Shown here one piece after another: positions 34,439-61,351 of a stretch of 64,000 bases of DNA; position 1 is the stretch's first letter; the number at the start of each line of letters is the position of its first letter. Origin of the DNA: Cellvibrionaceae bacterium. Lineage in GTDB: Bacteria > Pseudomonadota > Gammaproteobacteria > Pseudomonadales > Cellvibrionaceae. Location of the stretch: NCBI GenBank assembly GCA_028281575.1, contig JANQJP010000090.1, forward strand, positions 1 to 64,000, read 5' to 3'. A program made the position numbers and the translations under genes. The notes below the pieces were generated by a model. It was given only the letters and a program-made list of their open reading frames with translations, was not told the origin of the DNA and did not search any database.

Positions 34439-37400
34439 CTAGCCAGTTTTTTTGCGTCGACGCCGCAGACCCAAGGCCGCTGCTGCTAGGCCAGTGATTA
34501 GCAGCAGATCTGAACTACCGCCACCAGAACTCCCTCCCGAGCCTGGGATTAAACTGCCACCGCTGCCATTGCCCGATACAGAATTTGGTTCAGATTCGTC
34601 ATCTGCTACTGCGGGGTCCTCCGCAGGTTCAGGTGCGTCAGGGTCTGGAAGTGATGGTGGTGGCGACGCTGAGCCGTCAGGTCCGGGCAAACTCGGTGTA
34701 GGCGCAGGGTTTGGCTCTTCGTCGCCTGATGGTATTACTGTCGTGACATCAATACCCAAGTCTGTTTCGTCGCTTGGCGCGCTATTCGTATCAAGTTGCA
34801 GCAGGAACTGGATAAGCGATGCTTTGTTGGATGCCGACAAGTTGAGCACTTTAGTGTGCGCCTCGGCGGAAGTGATGTCCTCGCTCGTGCTCACCGTAAG
34901 GTCATCGATGGTGATGTACATATCGCTGGTGCCGCCTGGGTAGGTGAGCACGACTGAATTATCCGTGCCCGCGTTCAGTTCGACCTCGATCGCCGAAGTC
35001 TCGCCGTAATTACCTCTGCGCCAATCGAGTGGCGGCGTATGTTCCAGTTCCACTTGGTAGTCGGCTCCGTTAACACGCACATTTACCGTGCGTTCAGTTT
35101 CAGATTGAACGCCGGTATAGCGAAAGCGCAGGAACGCCTGGCCGCCTTCTCCACCATCGATGTTTTCGAAGGTGAGGCTGTTGTTATTGTTGCCTCGAAT
35201 AGAATGCCCGTTCGAGCCGCGAAGATATTCGTGTCCGCGGATCTGGGCGGTGCCAGAGCGGATTGCGTCTTCAGCCTGGTATACGGCACCGCCTACAGTG
35301 CTAAAAACATCGTTTATCGTTTTAGCGCTGCCATCATGCAAGTAGGGTGCGGATGCAAAAACACCGAGTAAGGTGGGTGTTTTCAAGCCAGGTAGTTTTT
35401 CGCCCAGACGCATACCCGAATAAGTGCGCATGCTGCCGACATCGTGCAGCAGGCCGTCGGTAAAAGCATCACCCTGGTGGCAGGTATGACAGCCCTGATC
35501 GATAAAGGTTTGTCGACCAGAAAGTGCTTGGGCTGTCAGTCCTCCGGTACTCGTGCGGTGAGGGCTTTTCGGAAGAGACGCTTTACCTAATGAGCTGACG
35601 TAAGCTGCGAGTGCATCCAAGTCACTACTCATTCCTGCTTTTGGTGCTCCCAACGTCGTGTTAGCAGCGCTAAACTGCTCGTCGCTTAAGAAACCTTCGC
35701 CGAGAAAGGCGCCGCGTATATCGTGCTCAAAATCCTGGATTTCATCAAAATTCCCCGACCAGTGGGCAGCGCCAAAGCGCACGCCTCCTTTACCAAGCAG
35801 CGATGTTGTATTTCTTAAGCCTTCGCCGCGCCCGGTAAAGTCCCAGGTACGGCCATCGTGGCCGCCGTCGACGTGGCAGGTCGCACAGCTGATATAGCCT
35901 TCAGCGCTCATGCGTTCGTCCGCAGCGTTATAGAAGATACGTTTCCCGCGCAACACCGTCTCTGGTAGTGCTTCGTCGGCGACTATGGGAATATGCTGGG
36001 CCGCTGGGCTGGTATTGCCCTGTCCAATGAACGCGCTCATATCGAGGCGAGTGACGGACCGGTCCATAAAGTTTTTAACGTAGAGTTTTTCGTTCCGGGT
36101 ATCGAAGCATAGGCTCTGCGGTGCATGCTCTGCGGGCAAATGCGCGATGACGTTGCCGAGGTTGCCGTCGACACCGTGATTAATCATATCCAGGGCCTGC
36201 ACGGTGTTGGTACCCTGGAAGGCAACAAATAGATATTCGCCGTTGGGTGAAAACTGCAGGGCTGAAGGAGAATCGGCGTTGTCGAAGTCAATGCGCAGGT
36301 CGTACATATCGACACCCTGTTCTCCACTCATGTCGAGCGTTGCCATCACGGTGCGTACGGTATTGTCGTCGTCCAAATCATTGGTTGTATCGATCCCTGA
36401 CCAAAGAATCAGGCTTCGATCAACATTGTCCTTTTTACCGACGACGTAGGCGCGTGAACCATCTGGGCTGAAGGTAATTCCGGCGAGATAGTTCGGCACG
36501 CCGCGACCGCTTTGCAAGGTGTCCGCGCCGTAGTCTTTTATGAGTCTGATAGTGCCTTCAAGTTCGAGTGTCGACGCGTTTAGTTGCCACACCTCGCCCC
36601 AATTAAGGTCGGAAATAAAGCGTGTAACGAGCAACGTTTCACCATCTGGTGACAGCGCCATCGCCGCTGCGAAAGGCCCTAGCTCGGTTTGAGCAGTGAT
36701 TTCACGGTTCAAGGTGTTTATCGCGATGACTTCGCCGGAACCGTAGAGGCTCACATAGGCGGTGAAACCATCCGGGCTCATAACCAATCCATAAGGTGAT
36801 GAGCCGTACCCGGTGTCAACTGAGTCAATGACCTCTCCGTCAGCATTGAGAATGGTGATAGCGTCATCGGTAAAGCTGGTAACCCATGTTTCATTCAAGC
36901 TCGTAACGGCTACGGATTTTGGCTTCGCCCCTGTGTTGTACTCGCCGACGAGTTCAGAGGTCTGGCTATTTATCGCGGTGACGGTGTTGTTATCAGGGTT
37001 AACTGCGTAGACCAGGTCGTTCTCGATATCACAGGCGAGCTGAGAAGAGCTCAAAAACCGGTTTTCGTCTGAACCATCACTAATTGCCGTGAGTACAGTA
37101 ACGTTTGTACTGCCCAATACTTGTTCGGAGGATGAGTCGCGCACTTGAACATTTATGCGATAAAAGCCCGGCTCATCGTAGGTGATAGAGGCAATACTCG
37201 ACGTGGTCCAATCACCGTAACCATTGCCATCAGCGAGATTAAAGCGGTATTCGATGGCGTCGCCGTCGGGATCGCTAGCAAGTGCTCGCACTTCGATTTC
37301 GGTTCCGAGAGCTACGGTGTTTGCAGGAATGGCAACAACTGAATCTACTACTGGAGCAGCGTTTATCGGCTCTGGAGTAGGCGCAGGGGTTGGCGTGGGT

Positions 37401-38869
37401 GTAGGGGTCGGTGTTGGCGCCGGGCTCGGTGTAGGTGTCGGCGCTGGCGTTGGGTCTGGCGTAGGTGAATTGTCGATTTCTCCTCCAGTAGAGAACCTGA
37501 AGCTAAGACCCTGCATGCCGTTGTTCGCTGCATCCAGGATGCCACCCTCAACAAAGGTTACCTCGTAAGTAGCGTTATTTTCCAGATAATCGATTGGGTC
37601 TATCGTCAAGACACCGCTGTGGTTAAGCACATATTGGAACGGTACCAGCGCGCCACCGACTTCGCGCAGAATTAAATTCTCACCAGGCACGATTGTCTCG
37701 GTTTGTAGTGTTTCGGGAATCGTTGCGGTTATTGGCGCAAAGACGGGGTAATCTTCCTGCCCATCCCGCGGAATATGATAGTTGACATAGGGGCCGCGCA
37801 AATCGGGTTCAGCCTGATGCGCAAAGATGGACATCCCCGCAGTATTGTTGCCTGCATCCCAGCGGCTCATTCCTCCAAAAACAACCAAATTGCCCAGCGG
37901 CATCGAAAACTGGTTAGTACCGACAGCGGTGGGGTTGTCGATATCGAATTCGAGTACGACTTCGCAGGCCTCTATATCTATTTTCCAATGAGCTGTGAAG
38001 GCATATTCATCCTGAAAGTTGACATACATCGGTGTGTTAGATGGGTGATCGAGCGATAGATCACAGGTCATGCGCAGATTGGTAGGGTCTGAGAAGTCGA
38101 CAGCGATAAAGCGGTTGGGGCTGCGCGAAGCGAAAATAACGTGGTGTCCCCAAATTTCAGTCCAATAACCGCCGATATTATTCTCTTTCAGTACATCGAG
38201 CAGCTTCGGGTTTGATGGGTCAGAAACATCGTAGGTGGCAACACCAGAATTTGTCTGGTCTGAAGCGTAGATCATGAGATTGCCGATAAAATGAGGAAAG
38301 CCTTGGACGCCGGTGAGGCCCAGGTGGTCCCATTCGGCGACGCGTTCGCCGTCCAGCTCAATCCACGAGAAACCAGAGGGGTTGTTATAACTCCAAAAAG
38401 TGCGTGCAGCCCAGGGGCGCATCATTGCACTGCTTTCCCAGTGTCCGTCTGGGCCAGTCCATTCGACGTGCTCTAATGGCCCGTCGCCAGTATATCTTAG
38501 GGCATTTCTAGGAAAGCCTCCGATATAGAGTTCGTTACCGCTTTTTATCAGGCCGTGGGCGCGAAACGGGTGCTTGGTATCTTGAAATGTGTTGAGTTGC
38601 CGTGGACTGCGCGGTTCGGAGATATCCCAGGAACGCACGAGAAAATCGCTGCCTGGGGGGCTAGACGGTTTTTCCGGGACCGTGACCACACGCCCGCCTA
38701 TGTATTCGATGATGGCTAGGCGCCCCATTTGAGGAGCAACGGGTCCGGCTAGCCGTTCACCCGGGGTTTGGGGCTCGTTTGGAAAACCTTGAGAGTGAAC
38801 GGTTTGACTGACTGCCACCGCCAATAATGCGGGGCTAAACCACTTAAAGAGCTTAGGGTTAGGTAACAT
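34439..38869 (-). CDS. Giant secreted beta-propeller / di-haem cytochrome protein with CBM-like domain and C-terminal sorting tail
   Basis: This 1476-residue protein starts with a signal peptide (to about residue 26). Residues about 40-390 look like LVIVD/choice-of-anchor repeats ([25 protein letters not shown]). A bacterial Ig-like domain (about 375-460) and a Pro-Thr linker (about 466-500) lead to a PKD/Ig-like domain (about 505-590). A YVTN-type beta-propeller follows (about 610-930). Two c-type haem motifs, C995-ATCH and C1127-HTCH, sit in a di-haem peroxidase/MauG-like region that includes [17 protein letters not shown]. Residues about 1195-1326 resemble a CBM6/35 carbohydrate-binding domain. 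The tail is Gly/Ser-rich, then a hydrophobic helix ([14 protein letters not shown]) and RRRRKK, like GlyGly-CTERM proteins handled by rhombosortase. A surface redox role is inferred; the substrate is unknown. Confidence 0.85.
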
Positions 38870-48387: not shown

Positions 48388-50166
48388 ATGGCAATTCGCA
48401 ATCTAATTGCTGTGTTTATAGTGGTTTCCCTATCCGCAATTTTTGTTGGTGGATATTTTGCTGATGCAAAAGCTTCCCGTGACCGCCAATTAAATGAAGT
48501 TGGCGCGAGTGATTTACCAGCTGCACAGCGAGACACCGATATAAACGTTCGGTCGGAAATTACTTTTGATGGCCCAGCCAAGCAAGCGTCACTGGGTATA
48601 GGCTTATCGATAGTCAGAGATTGGTCTACGGCGATGCCCTTTATCGATTTGATGAAACAATCACGCAAGTGGCACGATTGGGACAATAAAATACAGGGCT
48701 TTGATGTCGATAGTGATGGTTGGATACGTTCGCTAAAACCGAACCAAACTGCCGGTACAGTTTTTCTCGCTGTTAGCCAACCGGAACAGGTAGCGTATGA
48801 GCGTGTCGTTGTCACCTATGACGGTAAAGGCGCAGTGGAATACGCATGGTCCGCCAAAAAAGTTCCAGAGCTATCTACACATGGCCGCGATGTTGTAAAA
48901 ATTGGTAAAGGTAATCACCTGCTAAAAATTACCAAGACCGACCCACTCGATCCGATAAGAAATATCAAGATTCTAATTGAAGACCATATTGATCTCGCGA
49001 AAACAGGCGAAATATTTAATCCCGATTGGGAGAGCAAAATCGAAGGTTTTTACGCTGTGCGCTTTATGGACTGGATGAATACCAACCAATCTAATCAAGA
49101 GCGCTGGTCAAAACGTCCACGCGTTGAACAGAGGACCTGGGCTATCGACGGTGTGCCAGTGGAAGTCTTGGTTCGGCTGGCGAACAAGCATCGCTTTGTC
49201 CCTTGGTTTAACATACCTCACAAAGCAGATGAGTTGTACATAGAACGCTTCGCACAGATGATAAAACGCGATTTGGACCCCGCCCTGCCGTTTTATATTG
49301 AACATAGTAACGAAGTTTGGAATTGGCAGTACCAGCAGGCGCATGATGCGCGTGATTTGGCCAAGGAGCTTTGGGGAGTCGATGGCGATGGGTTTATGCA
49401 GTGGCACGGCGTGAGAACTGCGCAAATGTGTGAGATTTTTAAGAAGCGCGTTTTTACCGAGCAAACGCATCGGGTGCAATGCGTTGTTGGCGTGCAGACG
49501 GGATGGCATGGGCTAGAGACAGCGGCACTGGAATGTAAGGCATGGCGTAAACTTGGTAATCCGGCTTGCTTTACTTATGGTATCGATTACATTGGGATTA
49601 CGAGTTATTTTAGTGGCGGCTTAAATGGTCCTCATGATCGCAAGGATGAAGCGTATAAGCGAATAATCCTCGATATGGCGTCTAGCGGAGCCAAAGGGCT
49701 GGATAGAGCGTTTAAGCAGTTAAACTCCGGGGGTGAGCTCAGGAGCGTCAAAAAGTACCAACACTTTACGGGTGCTAGTGGCCGTCTATTGGAGCAGCTG
49801 AATTATTGGTCGGGAGTGGGCGATAAATATGGTTTGGGCCTTGTTGCCTACGAAGGAGGTCAACATATTACCGCTAACGCTTACGCCCTGCAGGAAAACG
49901 AGGACGTTATCGATTTTCATATTGCGATTAACCGCGATAAACGAATGAAACCCCTATATACGGATATTCTTCACGCATGGAAGGATGGAGGGGGTGAGCT
50001 GCATATGCTCTTTGATGACTTTAGATCGCCATCCAAATGGGGTGCCTGGGGCGCTTTAGAGCATTTGAATCAAGATTCTTCGCCAAAATATGATGCTTTG
50101 ATTGAGTTTAATCGATCGGTTACTTGTTGGTGGTATGGCTGTGCCATACCCGCTCCTGCAAATTAG
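48388..50166 (+). CDS. Exported glycoside-hydrolase-like protein of EPS locus
   Basis: This 592-residue protein has an N-terminal signal/anchor helix (residues 5-25). A beta-rich domain follows (about 60-220), then a TIM-barrel-like region. The SNEVWN motif places N308-E309 where clan GH-A enzymes keep the acid/base Glu, and LVAYEGGQH provides E489 as a plausible nucleophile. The substrate is unknown. EPS loci often carry such enzymes to trim or process the polymer. It also resembles proteins annotated as cellulose-binding. The gene lies 39 bases after the polymerase-like gene. Confidence 0.72.
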   Translation: MAIRNLIAVFIVVSLSAIFVGGYFADAKASRDRQLNEVGASDLPAAQRDTDINVRSEITFDGPAKQASLGIGLSIVRDWSTAMPFIDLMKQSRKWHDWDNKIQGFDVDSDGWIRSLKPNQTAGTVFLAVSQPEQVAYERVVVTYDGKGAVEYAWSAKKVPELSTHGRDVVKIGKGNHLLKITKTDPLDPIRNIKILIEDHIDLAKTGEIFNPDWESKIEGFYAVRFMDWMNTNQSNQERWSKRPRVEQRTWAIDGVPVEVLVRLANKHRFVPWFNIPHKADELYIERFAQMIKRDLDPALPFYIEHSNEVWNWQYQQAHDARDLAKELWGVDGDGFMQWHGVRTAQMCEIFKKRVFTEQTHRVQCVVGVQTGWHGLETAALECKAWRKLGNPACFTYGIDYIGITSYFSGGLNGPHDRKDEAYKRIILDMASSGAKGLDRAFKQLNSGGELRSVKKYQHFTGASGRLLEQLNYWSGVGDKYGLGLVAYEGGQHITANAYALQENEDVIDFHIAINRDKRMKPLYTDILHAWKDGGGELHMLFDDFRSPSKWGAWGALEHLNQDSSPKYDALIEFNRSVTCWWYGCAIPAPAN

Positions 50167-56908: not shown

Positions 56909-58039
56909 ATGAGGTTTCCCCTAAGAACACCCATTGCGCTGTGCGTGCTTTTGTTTTTTGTTTTGTCAGCTTCGATCTCGTACGCGAGTGAATGGCGGCT
57001 CAATATGACAGAAGGCGTCACGGCTGTAAGCCAGGAAGTATTCAGCCTGCATATGCTGATTTTCTGGATTTGTTGTGGCATTGGCGTTGTCGTATTCGGG
57101 GTGATGTTCGTCAGCATGTTCCTGCACCGAAAATCACGTGGTGCTGTTGCAGCAAATTTTCACGAGAGCACGGCGCTCGAATTCGTTTGGACAATTATTC
57201 CTCTTCTTATTCTTGTTGGCATGGCCTACCCTGCCACGACCACGCTCATGAAAATCTATGACACTGAAGATGCCGAAGTCGATGTGCTCATCACTGGTTA
57301 TCAATGGAAGTGGAAGTACGATTTCCCCGAACAGGGAGTATCCTTCTTTTCAAATATGAGTACACCCAAAGAGCAGATTTTAGGGGGTGCTGAAAAAGGT
57401 GAGCACTACCTGCTTGAAGTTGACGAACCGCTATTGATTCCCGTCGACAAAAAAGTCCGTTTTTTAGTGACGGCCGCAGATGTCATCCACAGTTGGTGGG
57501 TGCCCGACTTAGCGGTTAAACGCGATGCCATCCCCGGCTATATCAACCAGGCCTGGACGAAAGTGCAGGAGCCAGGTGTGTTTCGTGGGCAGTGTGCTGA
57601 GCTTTGCGGAAAAGACCACGGCTTTATGCCAATTGAAGTTCACGCCGTTTCACAAGACGAATTCGATCAGTGGATAGCCGCGAAGCAGGCGCGTGCTCAA
57701 GAGATTGCTGAAGCGGCGAAACAGACGTTAAGCTTCGACGAACTCTATACCCAGGGTGAAGCTATTTACGCTAATCAATGCGCAACCTGTCACCAACCGA
57801 ACGGAGAAGGTGTCGCAGGTGTTTTCCCAGCAATTGCTGGCAGCCCGATAGCATTGGGAGCGCTGGATGAACATTTGAGTCGGGTTGTGAAAGGGCTGGG
57901 CGCAATGCCCGCCTTTGGTGAACAGCTCACGCCAGTTGAACTCGCGGCAGTTGTCACGTTTCAGCGTAACGCTTTTGGCAATAACATGGGCGACATAGTA
58001 CAGCCCATTGATATTGTTAATTACAAGCAAGGCCAATAG
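56909..58039 (+). CDS. coxB: Cytochrome c oxidase subunit II with fused cytochrome c domain
   Basis: This 376-residue caa3-like subunit II has a signal/transmembrane hairpin (residues about 10-25, 45-68 and 85-105) and then the cupredoxin CuA domain. CuA ligands lie in HSWWVPDLAVK and RGQCAELCGKDHGFM (C-x3-C). An extra C-terminal cytochrome c domain has one haem motif CATCHQPNGEG (about residue 291). It delivers electrons to haem a of CoxA. ATG at 56909 has a GGAGACGGG ribosome site. Confidence 0.97.
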   Translation: MRFPLRTPIALCVLLFFVLSASISYASEWRLNMTEGVTAVSQEVFSLHMLIFWICCGIGVVVFGVMFVSMFLHRKSRGAVAANFHESTALEFVWTIIPLLILVGMAYPATTTLMKIYDTEDAEVDVLITGYQWKWKYDFPEQGVSFFSNMSTPKEQILGGAEKGEHYLLEVDEPLLIPVDKKVRFLVTAADVIHSWWVPDLAVKRDAIPGYINQAWTKVQEPGVFRGQCAELCGKDHGFMPIEVHAVSQDEFDQWIAAKQARAQEIAEAAKQTLSFDELYTQGEAIYANQCATCHQPNGEGVAGVFPAIAGSPIALGALDEHLSRVVKGLGAMPAFGEQLTPVELAAVVTFQRNAFGNNMGDIVQPIDIVNYKQGQ

Positions 58040-58051
58040 GAGAATAAAACA

Positions 58052-59602
58052 ATGGCACATGGTCCTGCGAAAGGTTTAAGTCGGTGGTTGTTCACAACCA
58101 ACCATAAAGATATCGGTACGATGTACCTGTGGTTTAGCTTCCTGATGTTTTTCCTTGGAGGCCTATTTGCGTTGGTTATTCGGGCAGAGCTATTTCAGCC
58201 TGGTCTGCAAATTGTTGAGCCCGCATTTTTTAATCAGATGACAACGCTGCACGGTTTGATCATGGTATTTGGTGCCGTCATGCCAGCCTTTGTTGGCTTA
58301 GCGAACTGGATGCTTCCGATGATGATCGGAGCGCCGGACATGGCGCTACCGCGTATGAACAACTGGAGTTTCTGGATTCTGCCGTTCGCGTTTGCGGCGC
58401 TGGTGTCTACTTTGTTTATGGAAGGGGGTGCGCCCGATTTTGGTTGGACTTTCTATGCGCCTCTGTCTACGACCTATGCACCACCCAGCGTCACCCTGTT
58501 TATTTTCTCTGTGCATATCATGGGTGCCAGCTCGATTATGGGTGCGATCAATATTATCGCGACTATTCTGAATATGCGTGCACCGGGCATGACTTTGATG
58601 AAGATGCCGCTGTTCGTTTGGACCTGGTTAATCACAGCCTATCTGCTGATCGCGGTGATGCCTGTGTTAGCAGGTGTTGTCACCATGATGTTGATGGACA
58701 TCCATTTCGGCACCTCATTTTTTGATGCTGCTGGTGGCGGTGATCCGGTGTTGTTCCAACACATATTTTGGTTCTTTGGTCACCCCGAAGTGTACATCAT
58801 GATTCTGCCGGCCTTCGGAATTGTCAGTGCCATTATTCCCACGTTTGCGCGTAAGCCCCTGTTTGGATATTCGTCCATGGTCTACGCGACCGCATCCATT
58901 GCCTTCTTGAGTTTTATCGTTTGGGCGCACCATATGTTCACAGTGGGCATGCCGCTTGCGGGTGAATTAATTTTTATGTATGCGACGATGTTGATCGCTG
59001 TTCCTACGGGTGTGAAGGTGTTTAACTGGGTGACCACGATGTGGCGCGGTGCGATGACTTTTGAAACGCCAATGCTCTTTTCGATCGCTTTCGTTATTTT
59101 GTTTACCATCGGTGGCTTTTCAGGTTTGATGCTCGCGATTGCGCCCGCTGATTTTCAATATCATGATACCTACTTTGTCGTTGCGCATTTCCATTATGTG
59201 TTAGTCCCCGGTGCAATTTTTTCGATTACCGCTGCTGTCTACTATTGGTTGCCTAAGTGGTGCGGTCGTATGTATGACGAAGCCATGGGTAGAGTACATT
59301 TTTGGATTGCGTTTATTGGTTTAAATGTCACGTTTTTTCCGATGCATTTTTCCGGCCTTGCAGGTATGCCGCGGCGTATCCCCGACTACAATCCACTGTG
59401 GGCAGATTGGAATATGATTTCGTCCGTTGGTGCGTTTTTATTTGGCGCTGCGCAAGTGCTGTTTTTGTATATTGTTATTCGAACGATTATCGGTGGAAAA
59501 AAAGCCAGCGACGAAGTTTGGGAAGCCTCACACGGTTTGGAGTGGACGGTTGCTTCACCTGCCCCCTACCATACCTTTTCTACACCCCCGGAAGTGAAAT
59601 AA
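58052..59602 (+). CDS. coxA: Cytochrome c oxidase subunit I
   Basis: This 516-residue, 12-helix subunit carries haem a, haem a3 and CuB and pumps protons. Diagnostic sequences are TTNHKDIGTMYL at the start, MTTLHGLIMVFGAVMPA, the CuB/His-Tyr motif WFFGHPEVYIMILP, and the haem ligand region DTYFVVAHFHYVL. It is 12 bases after coxB in the same operon. Confidence 0.98.
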   Translation: MAHGPAKGLSRWLFTTNHKDIGTMYLWFSFLMFFLGGLFALVIRAELFQPGLQIVEPAFFNQMTTLHGLIMVFGAVMPAFVGLANWMLPMMIGAPDMALPRMNNWSFWILPFAFAALVSTLFMEGGAPDFGWTFYAPLSTTYAPPSVTLFIFSVHIMGASSIMGAINIIATILNMRAPGMTLMKMPLFVWTWLITAYLLIAVMPVLAGVVTMMLMDIHFGTSFFDAAGGGDPVLFQHIFWFFGHPEVYIMILPAFGIVSAIIPTFARKPLFGYSSMVYATASIAFLSFIVWAHHMFTVGMPLAGELIFMYATMLIAVPTGVKVFNWVTTMWRGAMTFETPMLFSIAFVILFTIGGFSGLMLAIAPADFQYHDTYFVVAHFHYVLVPGAIFSITAAVYYWLPKWCGRMYDEAMGRVHFWIAFIGLNVTFFPMHFSGLAGMPRRIPDYNPLWADWNMISSVGAFLFGAAQVLFLYIVIRTIIGGKKASDEVWEASHGLEWTVASPAPYHTFSTPPEVK

Positions 59603-60232
59603 ATGTCAGCGCGGACGGAAGGTAAAGCGGTTAAACGCACCACTGTAAAGCTGGTGCTGTTGGCCGTGTCTATGTTCGCGTTTTGTCTTTTTGTGCTGCC
59701 GCCGATGTACACGCTGTTTTGCGAAATTACGGGTATAAACGGTAAAACATCCAGTAAACCCTATACTGCTGTTCCAGCAGGCGTGGACACGACGCGCACA
59801 GTAAAGGTGAAGTTTATCGCGACGAAAAATTCGGCGATGCCCTGGGAGTTTTTTCCTATGAACTACTCCATAGATGTGCATCCCGGTCAAGCAATGACAA
59901 CACATTTTGTCGCACAAAACCCGACGGCGAAATACATGGTTGGTCAGGCTGTGCCGAGTATGGCGCCCAAAAATGCTATCGACTATTTTCATAAAACAGA
60001 GTGTTTTTGCTTTAACCAGCAGACACTTGCCCCGGGTAAAAGCGCCGAGCTTGGCTTGCGCTTTATCGTAGATCAGGATCTACCCAAAGCGGTTAAAAGC
60101 ATTACTCTGTCGTACACATTATTTGATGTGACTGCGTCCTCGGCTGAAATAATTGAAGCCGAAAAAAACGCAGTGCAAGAAGCATCTTCTAATGAGCAAC
60201 CTACGGTAGGCCAATATTTAGCGAATCTTTAA
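59603..60232 (+). CDS. ctaG: Cytochrome c oxidase assembly protein CtaG (Cox11)
   Basis: This 209-residue single-span copper chaperone delivers copper to the CuB site of CoxA. The N-terminal membrane helix spans residues about 15-36. The periplasmic Cox11 domain holds the conserved CFCFNQQTL copper motif (about 134-142) and YTLFDVT near the end. The ATG immediately follows the coxA stop (no gap), so it is coupled. Confidence 0.96.
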   Translation: MSARTEGKAVKRTTVKLVLLAVSMFAFCLFVLPPMYTLFCEITGINGKTSSKPYTAVPAGVDTTRTVKVKFIATKNSAMPWEFFPMNYSIDVHPGQAMTTHFVAQNPTAKYMVGQAVPSMAPKNAIDYFHKTECFCFNQQTLAPGKSAELGLRFIVDQDLPKAVKSITLSYTLFDVTASSAEIIEAEKNAVQEASSNEQPTVGQYLANL

Positions 60233-60277
60233 TAGCACGCAGTATAAAAATTAGAAGATATAGCGGAGTTTAGAGCT

Positions 60278-61351
60278 ATGGAACAAAAATACGAACCGTA
60301 CTACGTCCCCGAACAAAGCAAATTTCCATTATTTGCAACGATTGGGCTTTTCCTTACGGTTATGGGCCTCGGCAATTGGCTAATGGAAATGTCCAATGGT
60401 ACTGAGGGCAAAGGTCAGCAGGTTTTTCTATTGGGCCTCGTCATTTTGCTGTTTGTCATGTGGAAATGGTTTGGCCAGGTGATAAAAGAAAATCATGCCG
60501 GTTTGAATAGTGCTCAGCTAAAGCGCAGTTATGTTTGGGGCATGGGTTGGTTTATTTTTAGTGAAGTCATGTTTTTTGCCGCGTTCTTCGGCGCACTGTT
60601 TTACGTACGTACTTTTGCGCTGCCCTGGTTGTCGGAAGGCCCTACCGCCGAATATCTTTGGAACGATTTTGAAGCCGAATGGCCGCTTATGACGACGCCG
60701 GACATGGCGGCAAACGGGGAGGCAGCAACTGTGCTCGGCCCTGAGAAAAATATGAGCAACCCGGGCATTGCCAATTGGTTTGGCTGGCTGCCGTTTTGGA
60801 ATACTGCATTGCTCTTGGCGTCAAGTGTGACGGTGCATTTTGCTCACACATCTTTAAAAAGCGGTAAGAACCAGCGTCAATTTAATCTGTGGCTCGCCGT
60901 TACTGTTTCGCTCGGTTTTTTGTTTTTGGTCCTTCAGGCGGAAGAATATATTGAAGCTTATGAGCATCTCGGCCTGCAGTTAAATTCAGGTATCTATGGC
61001 ACGACGTTCTTTATGCTCACCGGTTTTCACGGTGCGCACGTGACGCTGGGTACTATTATGCTGCTGGTTCAGCTCGCTCGCTCGGTAACGTCCTGGGCCT
61101 GGCGCTTGCCACCCATAATCGCTTTGATTGTTGCGTTTTACGTGGCTTTGTTTGGCGGGCACTTTGCACTTTCAATTAAACTGGCGATGGTCGGTGCTGC
61201 GTGCGGCTTGTTAATTTTTGTTGCCGCGATGAAACCAAATGGTATTTTCCATCACGACGACTGCTTTGGGTTTGAAGCTTCCAGCTGGTATTGGCACTTT
61301 GTTGACGTTGTTTGGCTTGGCTTGTTTATCTTTGTTTATATTCTCGGCTAA
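60278..61351 (+). CDS. coxC: Cytochrome c oxidase subunit III
   Basis: This 357-residue, seven-helix subunit stabilises subunit I. Family stretches include GWFIFSEVMFFAAFFGALFY, YEHLGLQLNSGIYGTTFFMLTGFHGAHVTLG and SSWYWHFVDVVWLGLFIFVYI. It is longer than the usual about 295 residues because of a polar insert around residues 112-165 (EAEWPLMTTPDMAANGEAA). A strong terminator follows the stop. Confidence 0.96.
   Translation: MEQKYEPYYVPEQSKFPLFATIGLFLTVMGLGNWLMEMSNGTEGKGQQVFLLGLVILLFVMWKWFGQVIKENHAGLNSAQLKRSYVWGMGWFIFSEVMFFAAFFGALFYVRTFALPWLSEGPTAEYLWNDFEAEWPLMTTPDMAANGEAATVLGPEKNMSNPGIANWFGWLPFWNTALLLASSVTVHFAHTSLKSGKNQRQFNLWLAVTVSLGFLFLVLQAEEYIEAYEHLGLQLNSGIYGTTFFMLTGFHGAHVTLGTIMLLVQLARSVTSWAWRLPPIIALIVAFYVALFGGHFALSIKLAMVGAACGLLIFVAAMKPNGIFHHDDCFGFEASSWYWHFVDVVWLGLFIFVYILG

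Follow-up and report, generated by a model that had tools for sequence, protein, structure and literature searches.

The identity of the gene and its core

What does a bacterium do with a single polypeptide that joins beta-propellers, haem-binding motifs and a carbohydrate-binding-type domain? The question is raised by one gene in a 64,000-nucleotide stretch of DNA from a Cellvibrionaceae bacterium (assembly GCA_028281575.1, contig JANQJP010000090.1, positions 1 to 64,000), here called the window. The gene is a complete open reading frame (ORF) at 34439..38869, stop included, which starts with ATG and encodes 1476 amino acids; it and all its features lie on the (-) strand. An earlier, sequence-only reading had suggested that a protein that binds carbohydrate and carries redox haems at the cell surface might couple extracellular electron transfer or oxidative attack to polysaccharide. 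The answer that we favour, with about even confidence, is that the protein is a secreted, probably surface-anchored oxidoreductase of the di-haem MauG/bacterial cytochrome c peroxidase (CCP) superfamily, built on a propeller plus di-haem core. The domain list of the sequence-only reading proved mostly right. That reading overlooked the hydrazine-synthase-like nature of the core, the position of the carbohydrate-binding-type domain inside the haem domain, and the fusion of the core to galactose-oxidase-like enzymes in relatives.

By scanning genome contigs with a pattern we confirmed 323 related loci and retained the 80 best (loci are numbered with L, genomes with G). Full-length relatives matched at E=0, a resemblance far above chance, and they span at least five phyla; the related loci come from Acidobacteriota, Verrucomicrobiota, gamma-Pseudomonadota, Myxococcota, Hydrogenedentota, Sumerlaeia and others. 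We aligned 67 full-length sequences with a median pairwise identity of 41% (range 31-96%). These rows were selected for coverage (query start ≤40, end ≥1340); 69 loci fell within these limits, from which we dropped L001 (the gene itself), L009 (the same protein as L039) and L064 (near L063) before adding the window protein. In three of the 80 kept loci (L101, L114 and L117) the match stops at about residue 1190-1216. Spread within the order is patchy, with 21 ORFs in 19 of 390 genomes (profile of residues 28-1200, E≤1e-100). The window protein is a member of a conserved, uncharacterised family.

By far the most conserved part is the haem domain. Across residues 960-1200, 69 of 241 columns were at least 95% identical; the corresponding counts were 22-23 for each propeller and 5 for the inserted domain described below. 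The first part of this di-haem MauG/CCP domain (residues 966-1193, 35291..35974) was recognised by Pfam, NCBIfam and phmmer, and C-terminal helices at residues 1328-1362 (34784..34888) complete it, judged by conservation and predicted structure. Exactly two CxxCH motifs are present, as the sequence-only reading had proposed for a MauG/peroxidase-like module: CATCH for haem 1 (C995, residues 995-999, 35873..35887) and CHTCH for haem 2 (C1127, residues 1127-1131, 35477..35491). Haem-protein homology was found around both. The Pfam CCP_MauG model matched residues 975-1045 with 38.7 bits (cut-off 25.6), and a phmmer search with residues 960-1200 found hydrazine synthase gamma (5c2v_C, E 9.4e-12) followed by cytochrome c551 peroxidase (3o5c, E 2.1e-10). 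Invariant in 67/67 sequences were C995, C998, H999, H1036, W1037, C1127, C1130, H1131, H1178 and H1338. The His1036-Trp1037 pair (35759..35764) was also present as HW in all 20 non-distant relatives listed, and W1037 stands, judged by spacing, at the probable place of the inter-haem Trp of MauG/CCP proteins. His1178 belongs to a PYLHDG motif (residues 1175-1180, 35330..35347).

Upstream of the haem domain lies a YVTN propeller (residues 609-949, 36023..37045), again in agreement with the sequence-only reading. NCBIfam showed YVTN/PQQ-propeller similarity at 612-749 (TIGR03866-like and beta_rpt_yvtn), and an AlphaFold model of residues 503-1365, made with the 67 sequences, had a mean predicted local distance difference test score (pLDDT) of 86.9 and a predicted template modelling score (pTM) of 0.89, with seven blades in the propeller. 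Its best PDB match by Foldseek was hydrazine synthase beta; VIA-align gave Z 38.1 with a root-mean-square deviation of 1.9 over 308 aligned residues, and the YVTN S-layer protein 1l0q tied with it (Z 38.0).

More distant from the family are L144, L145 and L146, proteins of 880-905 aa with a YVTN propeller and two haem motifs that are 23-28% identical to the core. LVIVD or oxidase domains were not found in this group, which forms a separate branch (100/100).

A carbohydrate-binding-type domain inside the haem domain

Between the PYLHDG motif and the closing helices lies a CBM6/CBM35-like beta-domain (CBM, carbohydrate-binding module; residues 1194-1327, 34889..35290). The sequence-only reading had listed a CBM6/35-like domain, and the assignment stands at the level of the family. 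In the window protein alone CBM_6 scored 22.4 bits, below its cut-off of 28.9. For the family we used 53 of the 67 aligned sequences: CBM_6 matched at E≤0.01 in 20 of the 53, and a 53-row profile of the insert found 5x7o, a domain of a GH31 enzyme (E 1.3e-15), and Xyn30D (E 1.2e-11). We take the matched domains of both to be CBM35.

Directly after the insert comes His1338 (34856..34858), the predicted distal ligand of haem 2. Its distance from the PYLHDG His showed how the insert is placed. In 25 relatives without an insert, where any His 8-29 residues on was accepted and L165 and L166 are near copies, a His followed at +14 in 12/12 galactose-oxidase-type proteins, at +16 or +17 in 12/12 LVIVD-type proteins, and at +16 in one further. 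In 67/67 sequences with the insert, the His was at +148 to +180. The AlphaFold model makes the 130-odd residues of the insert an all-beta domain, after which a helix begins at residue 1336. These offsets, the all-beta model and the CBM35-like profile together argue that a carbohydrate-binding-type domain interrupts the haem domain just ahead of the predicted haem-2 ligand instead of being appended to it. The presence of the insert in 67/67 rows is partly due to selection, because the rows were chosen for coverage.

In bacterial cytochrome c peroxidases the distal ligand of the second haem is a Met. The His at +14 aligns with a Met of the di-haem peroxidase 1iqc, which we take to be the Nitrosomonas enzyme and the Met its distal ligand of the second haem. 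Met was absent from this place in the family, and His occupied it in 67/67 proteins with the insert and 25/25 without.

We placed the insert on a tree of 49 rows, length-filtered ORFs made up of 22 of the 67 coverage-selected sequences and 27 others. Insert-bearing rows and three rows without the insert formed one group (85/95), for which one gain and one loss would be the simplest account.

The core is fused to a galactose-oxidase-like enzyme in a sister clade

The same genome holds a second core gene, L126 (2061 aa, G000:C16), which starts with a galactose-oxidase-like enzyme. Pfam detected GO-like_E_set in L126 (76.4 bits, cut-off 25) with kelch repeats and Glyoxal_oxid_N below cut-off, and the protein matched galactose oxidase 9g8h at E 5.4e-93. 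Neither Glyoxal_oxid_N nor GO-like_E_set was found by Pfam in the window protein. A Pfam scan of 22 core-bearing ORFs among the relatives divided most of them into two types. Nine were of galactose-oxidase type, with GO-like_E_set above cut-off (L126, L128, L135, L138-L142 and L147), and ten carried LVIVD and/or Big_5 (L127, L129-L134, L136, L137 and L143; L132 by BLAST to the window module). The remaining three were L148, which lies at a contig edge and carries a threefold CBM6 repeat, and the distant L144 and L146. Elsewhere in the class, two genomes held three further fusions (one in G460, two in G605), and the LVIVD type occurred in G671 and in one G766 gene.

In all ten fusions checked (the two of G605 were left out), five copper-radical catalytic positions were kept, which we take to be the equivalents of galactose oxidase Cys228, Tyr272, Tyr495, His496 and His581. 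The simplest reading of an intact oxidase of this kind fused to a di-haem peroxidase-type core is that oxidase and peroxidase partner are paired within a single chain. All 12 oxidase-type cores grouped together in the 49-row tree (100/100), and a single change suffices for the 33 LVIVD-type rows (100/100). Across the order, GO-like_E_set occurred in 27 ORFs in 26 of 390 genomes. Eight of the 27 carried the core; among the other 19, no core was found in or beside the 11 examined, with L155 cut by the contig end.

A sugar-binding-type domain exceeded its cut-off in 16 of the 22 scanned relatives (CBM2, CBM6, ricin, F5/8C, malectin, L-type lectin, LamG, NPCBM and PA14); the six without one were L127, L130, L132, L142, L144 and L146.

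A separate two-CxxCH ORF adjoined five of the nine galactose-oxidase-type loci (L126:2-1213 (-), L128:5976-7460 (+), L135:2358-3737 (-), L138:13192-14430 (+) and L147:3-1103 (-)); two of the five were scanned and resembled MauG/MbnH below cut-off. A small ORF of 139-186 aa lay between the fusion gene and the two-CxxCH ORF in L126, L135, L138 and L147. Directly upstream of two other galactose-oxidase-core genes we saw, by eye, an ORF resembling an SCO/thioredoxin-fold copper chaperone (L139:2526-3131 (+) and L140:6853-7536 (-)); scans gave a weak thiol peroxidase match for the ORF at L139 and none for that at L140.

N-terminal modules, tail and location

A probable signal peptide (residues 1-26, 38792..38869) was recognised by eye, and family conservation starts at about residue 28. 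It is followed by an LVIVD-type beta-propeller-like module (residues 28-355, 37805..38788), all-beta in a structural model. The LVIVD repeats of the sequence-only reading held in part: the LVIVD model PF08309 gave no match in the window protein at E≤1, but exceeded its cut-off in three relatives (L133, L134 and L143). The immunoglobulin (Ig)-like and PKD domains of that reading were borne out, with Big_5 at residues 359-461 (37487..37795; 39.4 bits, cut-off 23.6) and PKD_4 at residues 503-584 (37118..37363) both above their Pfam cut-offs. The Pro-Thr linker between them (residues 467-500, 37370..37471) is present in the window protein but not conserved across the family, and most relatives are without it. 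When Foldseek and VIA-align were run with a model of residues 28-1200, YVTN/WD40 rows filled the lists and the LVIVD part was barely tested.

We also considered the LVIVD module, a propeller followed by an Ig domain, as a hidden galactose-oxidase-like metal oxidase. Because H105 and Y282 were the sole invariant His and Tyr of the module in 77 sequences, we do not claim it as an oxidase.

The protein ends in a Gly-Ser-rich, hydrophobic, Arg/Lys-rich tail that looks like a sorting signal (residues 1437-1476, 34442..34561). The sequence-only reading had described a Gly-Ser, hydrophobic, poly-Arg tail, which is present but is not conserved family-wide and gave no match to the GlyGly_CTERM model TIGR03501 at E≤10. 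Among five gamma relatives, L038, L010 and L011 passed this model and L039 and L040 did not. The genome does hold a rhombosortase gene (139.2 bits, cut-off 84), for which that reading had suggested a search, and rhombosortase was above cut-off in the genomes of four of five gamma relatives tested. That reading had also suggested looking for other proteins with the same tail: the tail, searched against the genome, matched its own gene alone, and a GlyGly_CTERM scan of the genome found none above cut-off, a weak test with a 22-position six-frame model whose control was above cut-off in one genome only. Relatives in other phyla have quite different C-termini. With the core kept while the C-termini differ, anchoring likely differs as well, and an extracellular place would be the common denominator. 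The signal-peptide-like N-terminus, the Ig/PKD modules and the Gly-Ser/hydrophobic/Arg tail of the window protein indicate that it is probably secreted and surface-anchored.

A proposed mechanism and the alternatives

In the scheme of haem ligation and spin states that we propose, haem 1 (C995-H999) would bind and activate H2O2, and haem 2 (C1127-H1131, with H1338 as its second ligand) would serve as a six-coordinate relay, coupled to haem 1 by W1037. A bound substrate would receive the oxidising equivalents via the protein. The enzyme would be tethered to a glycan by the CBM35-like domain, which might also tune haem 2. As a built-in peroxidase partner, the core would activate a copper oxidase and/or consume the H2O2 that it makes; it probably arose in this role or was recruited to it. 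The LVIVD propeller and Ig domain of the window protein, which sit in the oxidase's slot, probably dock a separate partner or substrate. The window protein would then be a glycan-tethered peroxidase-type oxidase that receives H2O2 and substrate from outside, possibly from a galactose-oxidase-like oxidase. More tentatively, the core may be a general, dedicated redox partner for extracellular oxidases in one chain, with a clade of self-activating copper radical oxidase-peroxidases on one side and, on the other, a clade whose LVIVD module docks a separate partner; in the window clade, glycan binding by the insert at the haem-2 ligand might switch the haem pair. Oxidative attack on polysaccharide, one of the two possibilities of the sequence-only reading, is the favoured prediction, to which the sugar-binding domains of relatives and the galactose-oxidase-like domain of the sister clade lend weight. 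The idea of a redox-haem protein at the cell surface is supported to the extent of a secreted, probably surface-held protein that has a MauG/peroxidase-type di-haem module and a carbohydrate-binding-type domain.

Several observations weigh against this peroxidase-type scheme. An oxidase domain is missing from the window protein itself, and no clear active site can be made out in its LVIVD module. H1036, beside W1037, could cap haem 1 and block the peroxidase site. At five of the nine galactose-oxidase-type loci, the true activator could be the separate MauG-like gene. One small subclade (L127, L132 and L165) has lost the insert, which indicates that it is not essential to the fold. As for anchoring, the GlyGly_CTERM model was not matched by the tail, which is GlyGly-CTERM-like.

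A somewhat unlikely alternative is a MauG/MbnH-like maturase, whose di-haem core would oxidise a side chain in the protein's own propellers or in a partner, thus making a cofactor. Galactose-oxidase-type enzymes do carry a Tyr-Cys cofactor; the similarity to the MauG model TIGR03791 (34.9 bits, cut-off 443.85) and the MbnH model (34.4 bits) of NCBIfam is weak but real, and the core of nearly all scanned relatives is fused with another large module, as a maturase would be with its client. MauG and MbnH, however, have Tyr at the haem-2 distal place, which is taken by His in this family. The LVIVD module shows no conspicuous cluster of invariant Trp/Tyr/Cys, and at five of nine galactose-oxidase-type genes the adjoining MauG-like gene could do the cofactor job. 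We consider it unlikely that the protein is a RoxA-like dioxygenase, in which haem 1 would bind O2 and cleave a polymer and haem 2 would be bis-His. RoxA has a bis-His second haem too, and the Pfam RoxA-like_Cyt-c piece at residues 1163-1189 scored 25.2 bits, just below its cut-off of 26.7; yet this piece is a short stretch round the PYLHDG motif common to the superfamily, and the RoxB/RoxC models of NCBIfam gave 18.3 bits against a cut-off of 900.

Nitrogen chemistry related to that of hydrazine synthase is very improbable, even though the best structural match of the propeller, the best PDB sequence match of the haem domain and the propeller-then-di-haem order, as in the fused beta-gamma subunit, all lead to that enzyme. 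None of the 67 sequences has a Cys between H999 and C1127, and the family thus lacks the third thioether Cys of gamma haem I. Trp rather than His stands near haem 1, as in the other non-anammox homologues (PMC12758564), and fusions occur with copper-oxidase-type domains. Because the Trp is kept and that Cys is absent, we conclude that the protein is not a hydrazine synthase. The other proposal of the sequence-only reading, an electron-transfer or docking cytochrome passing respiratory electrons to or from the surface, fits a surface-type two-haem protein of a widespread family. We give it little credence, since there are two haems only, a bridging-type Trp, sugar-binding or oxidase domains in relatives, and a stand-alone gene with no porin-cytochrome neighbours seen and no recurrent redox partner in 79 loci. 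Equally doubtful is a structural adhesin with a haem domain that is no longer catalytic: adhesion-type modules are many, and linker and tail are of low complexity, but the haem domain is the most conserved part, and its count of near-invariant columns (69) stands against 23 in the longer LVIVD part. The peroxidase-superfamily oxidoreductase remains the reading that we prefer.

Neighbourhood of the gene

The gene is convergent with aroE and divergent from a dTDP-rhamnose/exopolysaccharide (EPS) cluster (rmlA, rmlC, rmlD, rmlB and Poly_export). The sequence-only reading had pointed to this EPS locus; the adjacency is real, but we dropped it as a clue to function. By eye, no EPS cluster was evident round L038-L040, the three closest named relatives with flanks listed, where the flanks held housekeeping genes, other genes or, at L039, type II secretion-like pseudopilin genes. 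Clustering of the flanking ORFs of 79 loci (L064 left out as a near copy) showed no recurrent EPS family, enzyme partner or redox partner. Named by eye, a Ser/Thr-kinase-like ORF lay beside the gene in 14 of the 79 loci (for example L080:312-2850 (-), L048, L049 and L050) and a sigma-factor-like ORF in 8.

In the rest of the window, a secreted-looking protein of 592 aa is encoded within the EPS cluster (48388-50166 (+)), and a cytochrome c oxidase operon lies at 56909-61351 (+), comprising, by eye, subunit II with a fused CxxCH cytochrome domain, subunit I, a CtaG-like protein and subunit III. Promoter and terminator scans gave counts close to those of shuffled sequence, and tRNA and Rfam scans of the window gave no match.

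Relation to known systems

Hydrazine synthase beta/gamma, fused as beta-gamma in Scalindua, shares with the window protein the order of a seven-bladed propeller followed by a MauG/CCP di-haem domain and a bis-His second haem, predicted in the case of the window protein, and provided the best PDB matches. The window protein differs from it in the missing third haem-1 Cys and in the Trp near haem 1 instead of His, and adds the N-terminal LVIVD/Ig/PKD modules, the inserted CBM35-like domain and the sorting-type tail. Similarity to the NCBIfam models for the beta, gamma and fused beta-gamma subunits is weak, with three scores far below their cut-offs (42.3 bits against 625, 40 against 1250 and 37.8 against 560). 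Di-haem cytochrome c peroxidases and MauG/MbnH are alike in their two CxxCH motifs about 130 residues apart, the inter-haem-type Trp, the PY-HDG motif and a CCP_MauG match above cut-off. Unlike them, the window family has His where CCP proteins carry the distal Met of haem 2 and MauG a Tyr, and the window protein has fused propellers and a CBM inserted at the distal-ligand loop.

According to PMC12758564, fused beta-gamma homologues outside anammox bacteria are widespread (clades I-IV), carry the propeller and di-haem core across phyla, and keep a Trp near haem 1 that replaces the His of the true enzyme; those studied in detail there adjoin an alpha-subunit homologue. The main text of that paper makes no mention of LVIVD, galactose oxidase, PKD or carbohydrate. 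Copper radical oxidases make H2O2 and rest inactive until a one-electron oxidation, for example by a peroxidase, and are usually activated in vitro with horseradish peroxidase, as PMC9770985 states. The same paper describes plant-pathogenic fungi (Colletotrichum and Magnaporthe) in which a co-expressed haem peroxidase activates the coupled copper radical oxidase of a tandem peroxidase-AlcOx pair. The fungal pair comprises two genes with a class II-type peroxidase, whereas the sister clade has one chain with a di-haem core, and the window protein has no oxidase. We found no description of the architecture of the window family in open-licence PMC text. In the text searched, this known superfamily appears not to have been described with such a combination of parts, such an insertion point or the fusion to an oxidase.

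If this reading is correct, single-chain surface machines would be found across several phyla in which a di-haem peroxidase core is mounted on sugar-binding modules and, in a sister clade, on a copper radical oxidase. The natural fusion of oxidase and core would make the question of the partner directly testable and could be useful in biocatalysis. The few known kin of hydrazine synthase beta-gamma would gain a large set of relatives, and the insertion of a carbohydrate-binding domain at a haem ligand would stand as an unusual case.

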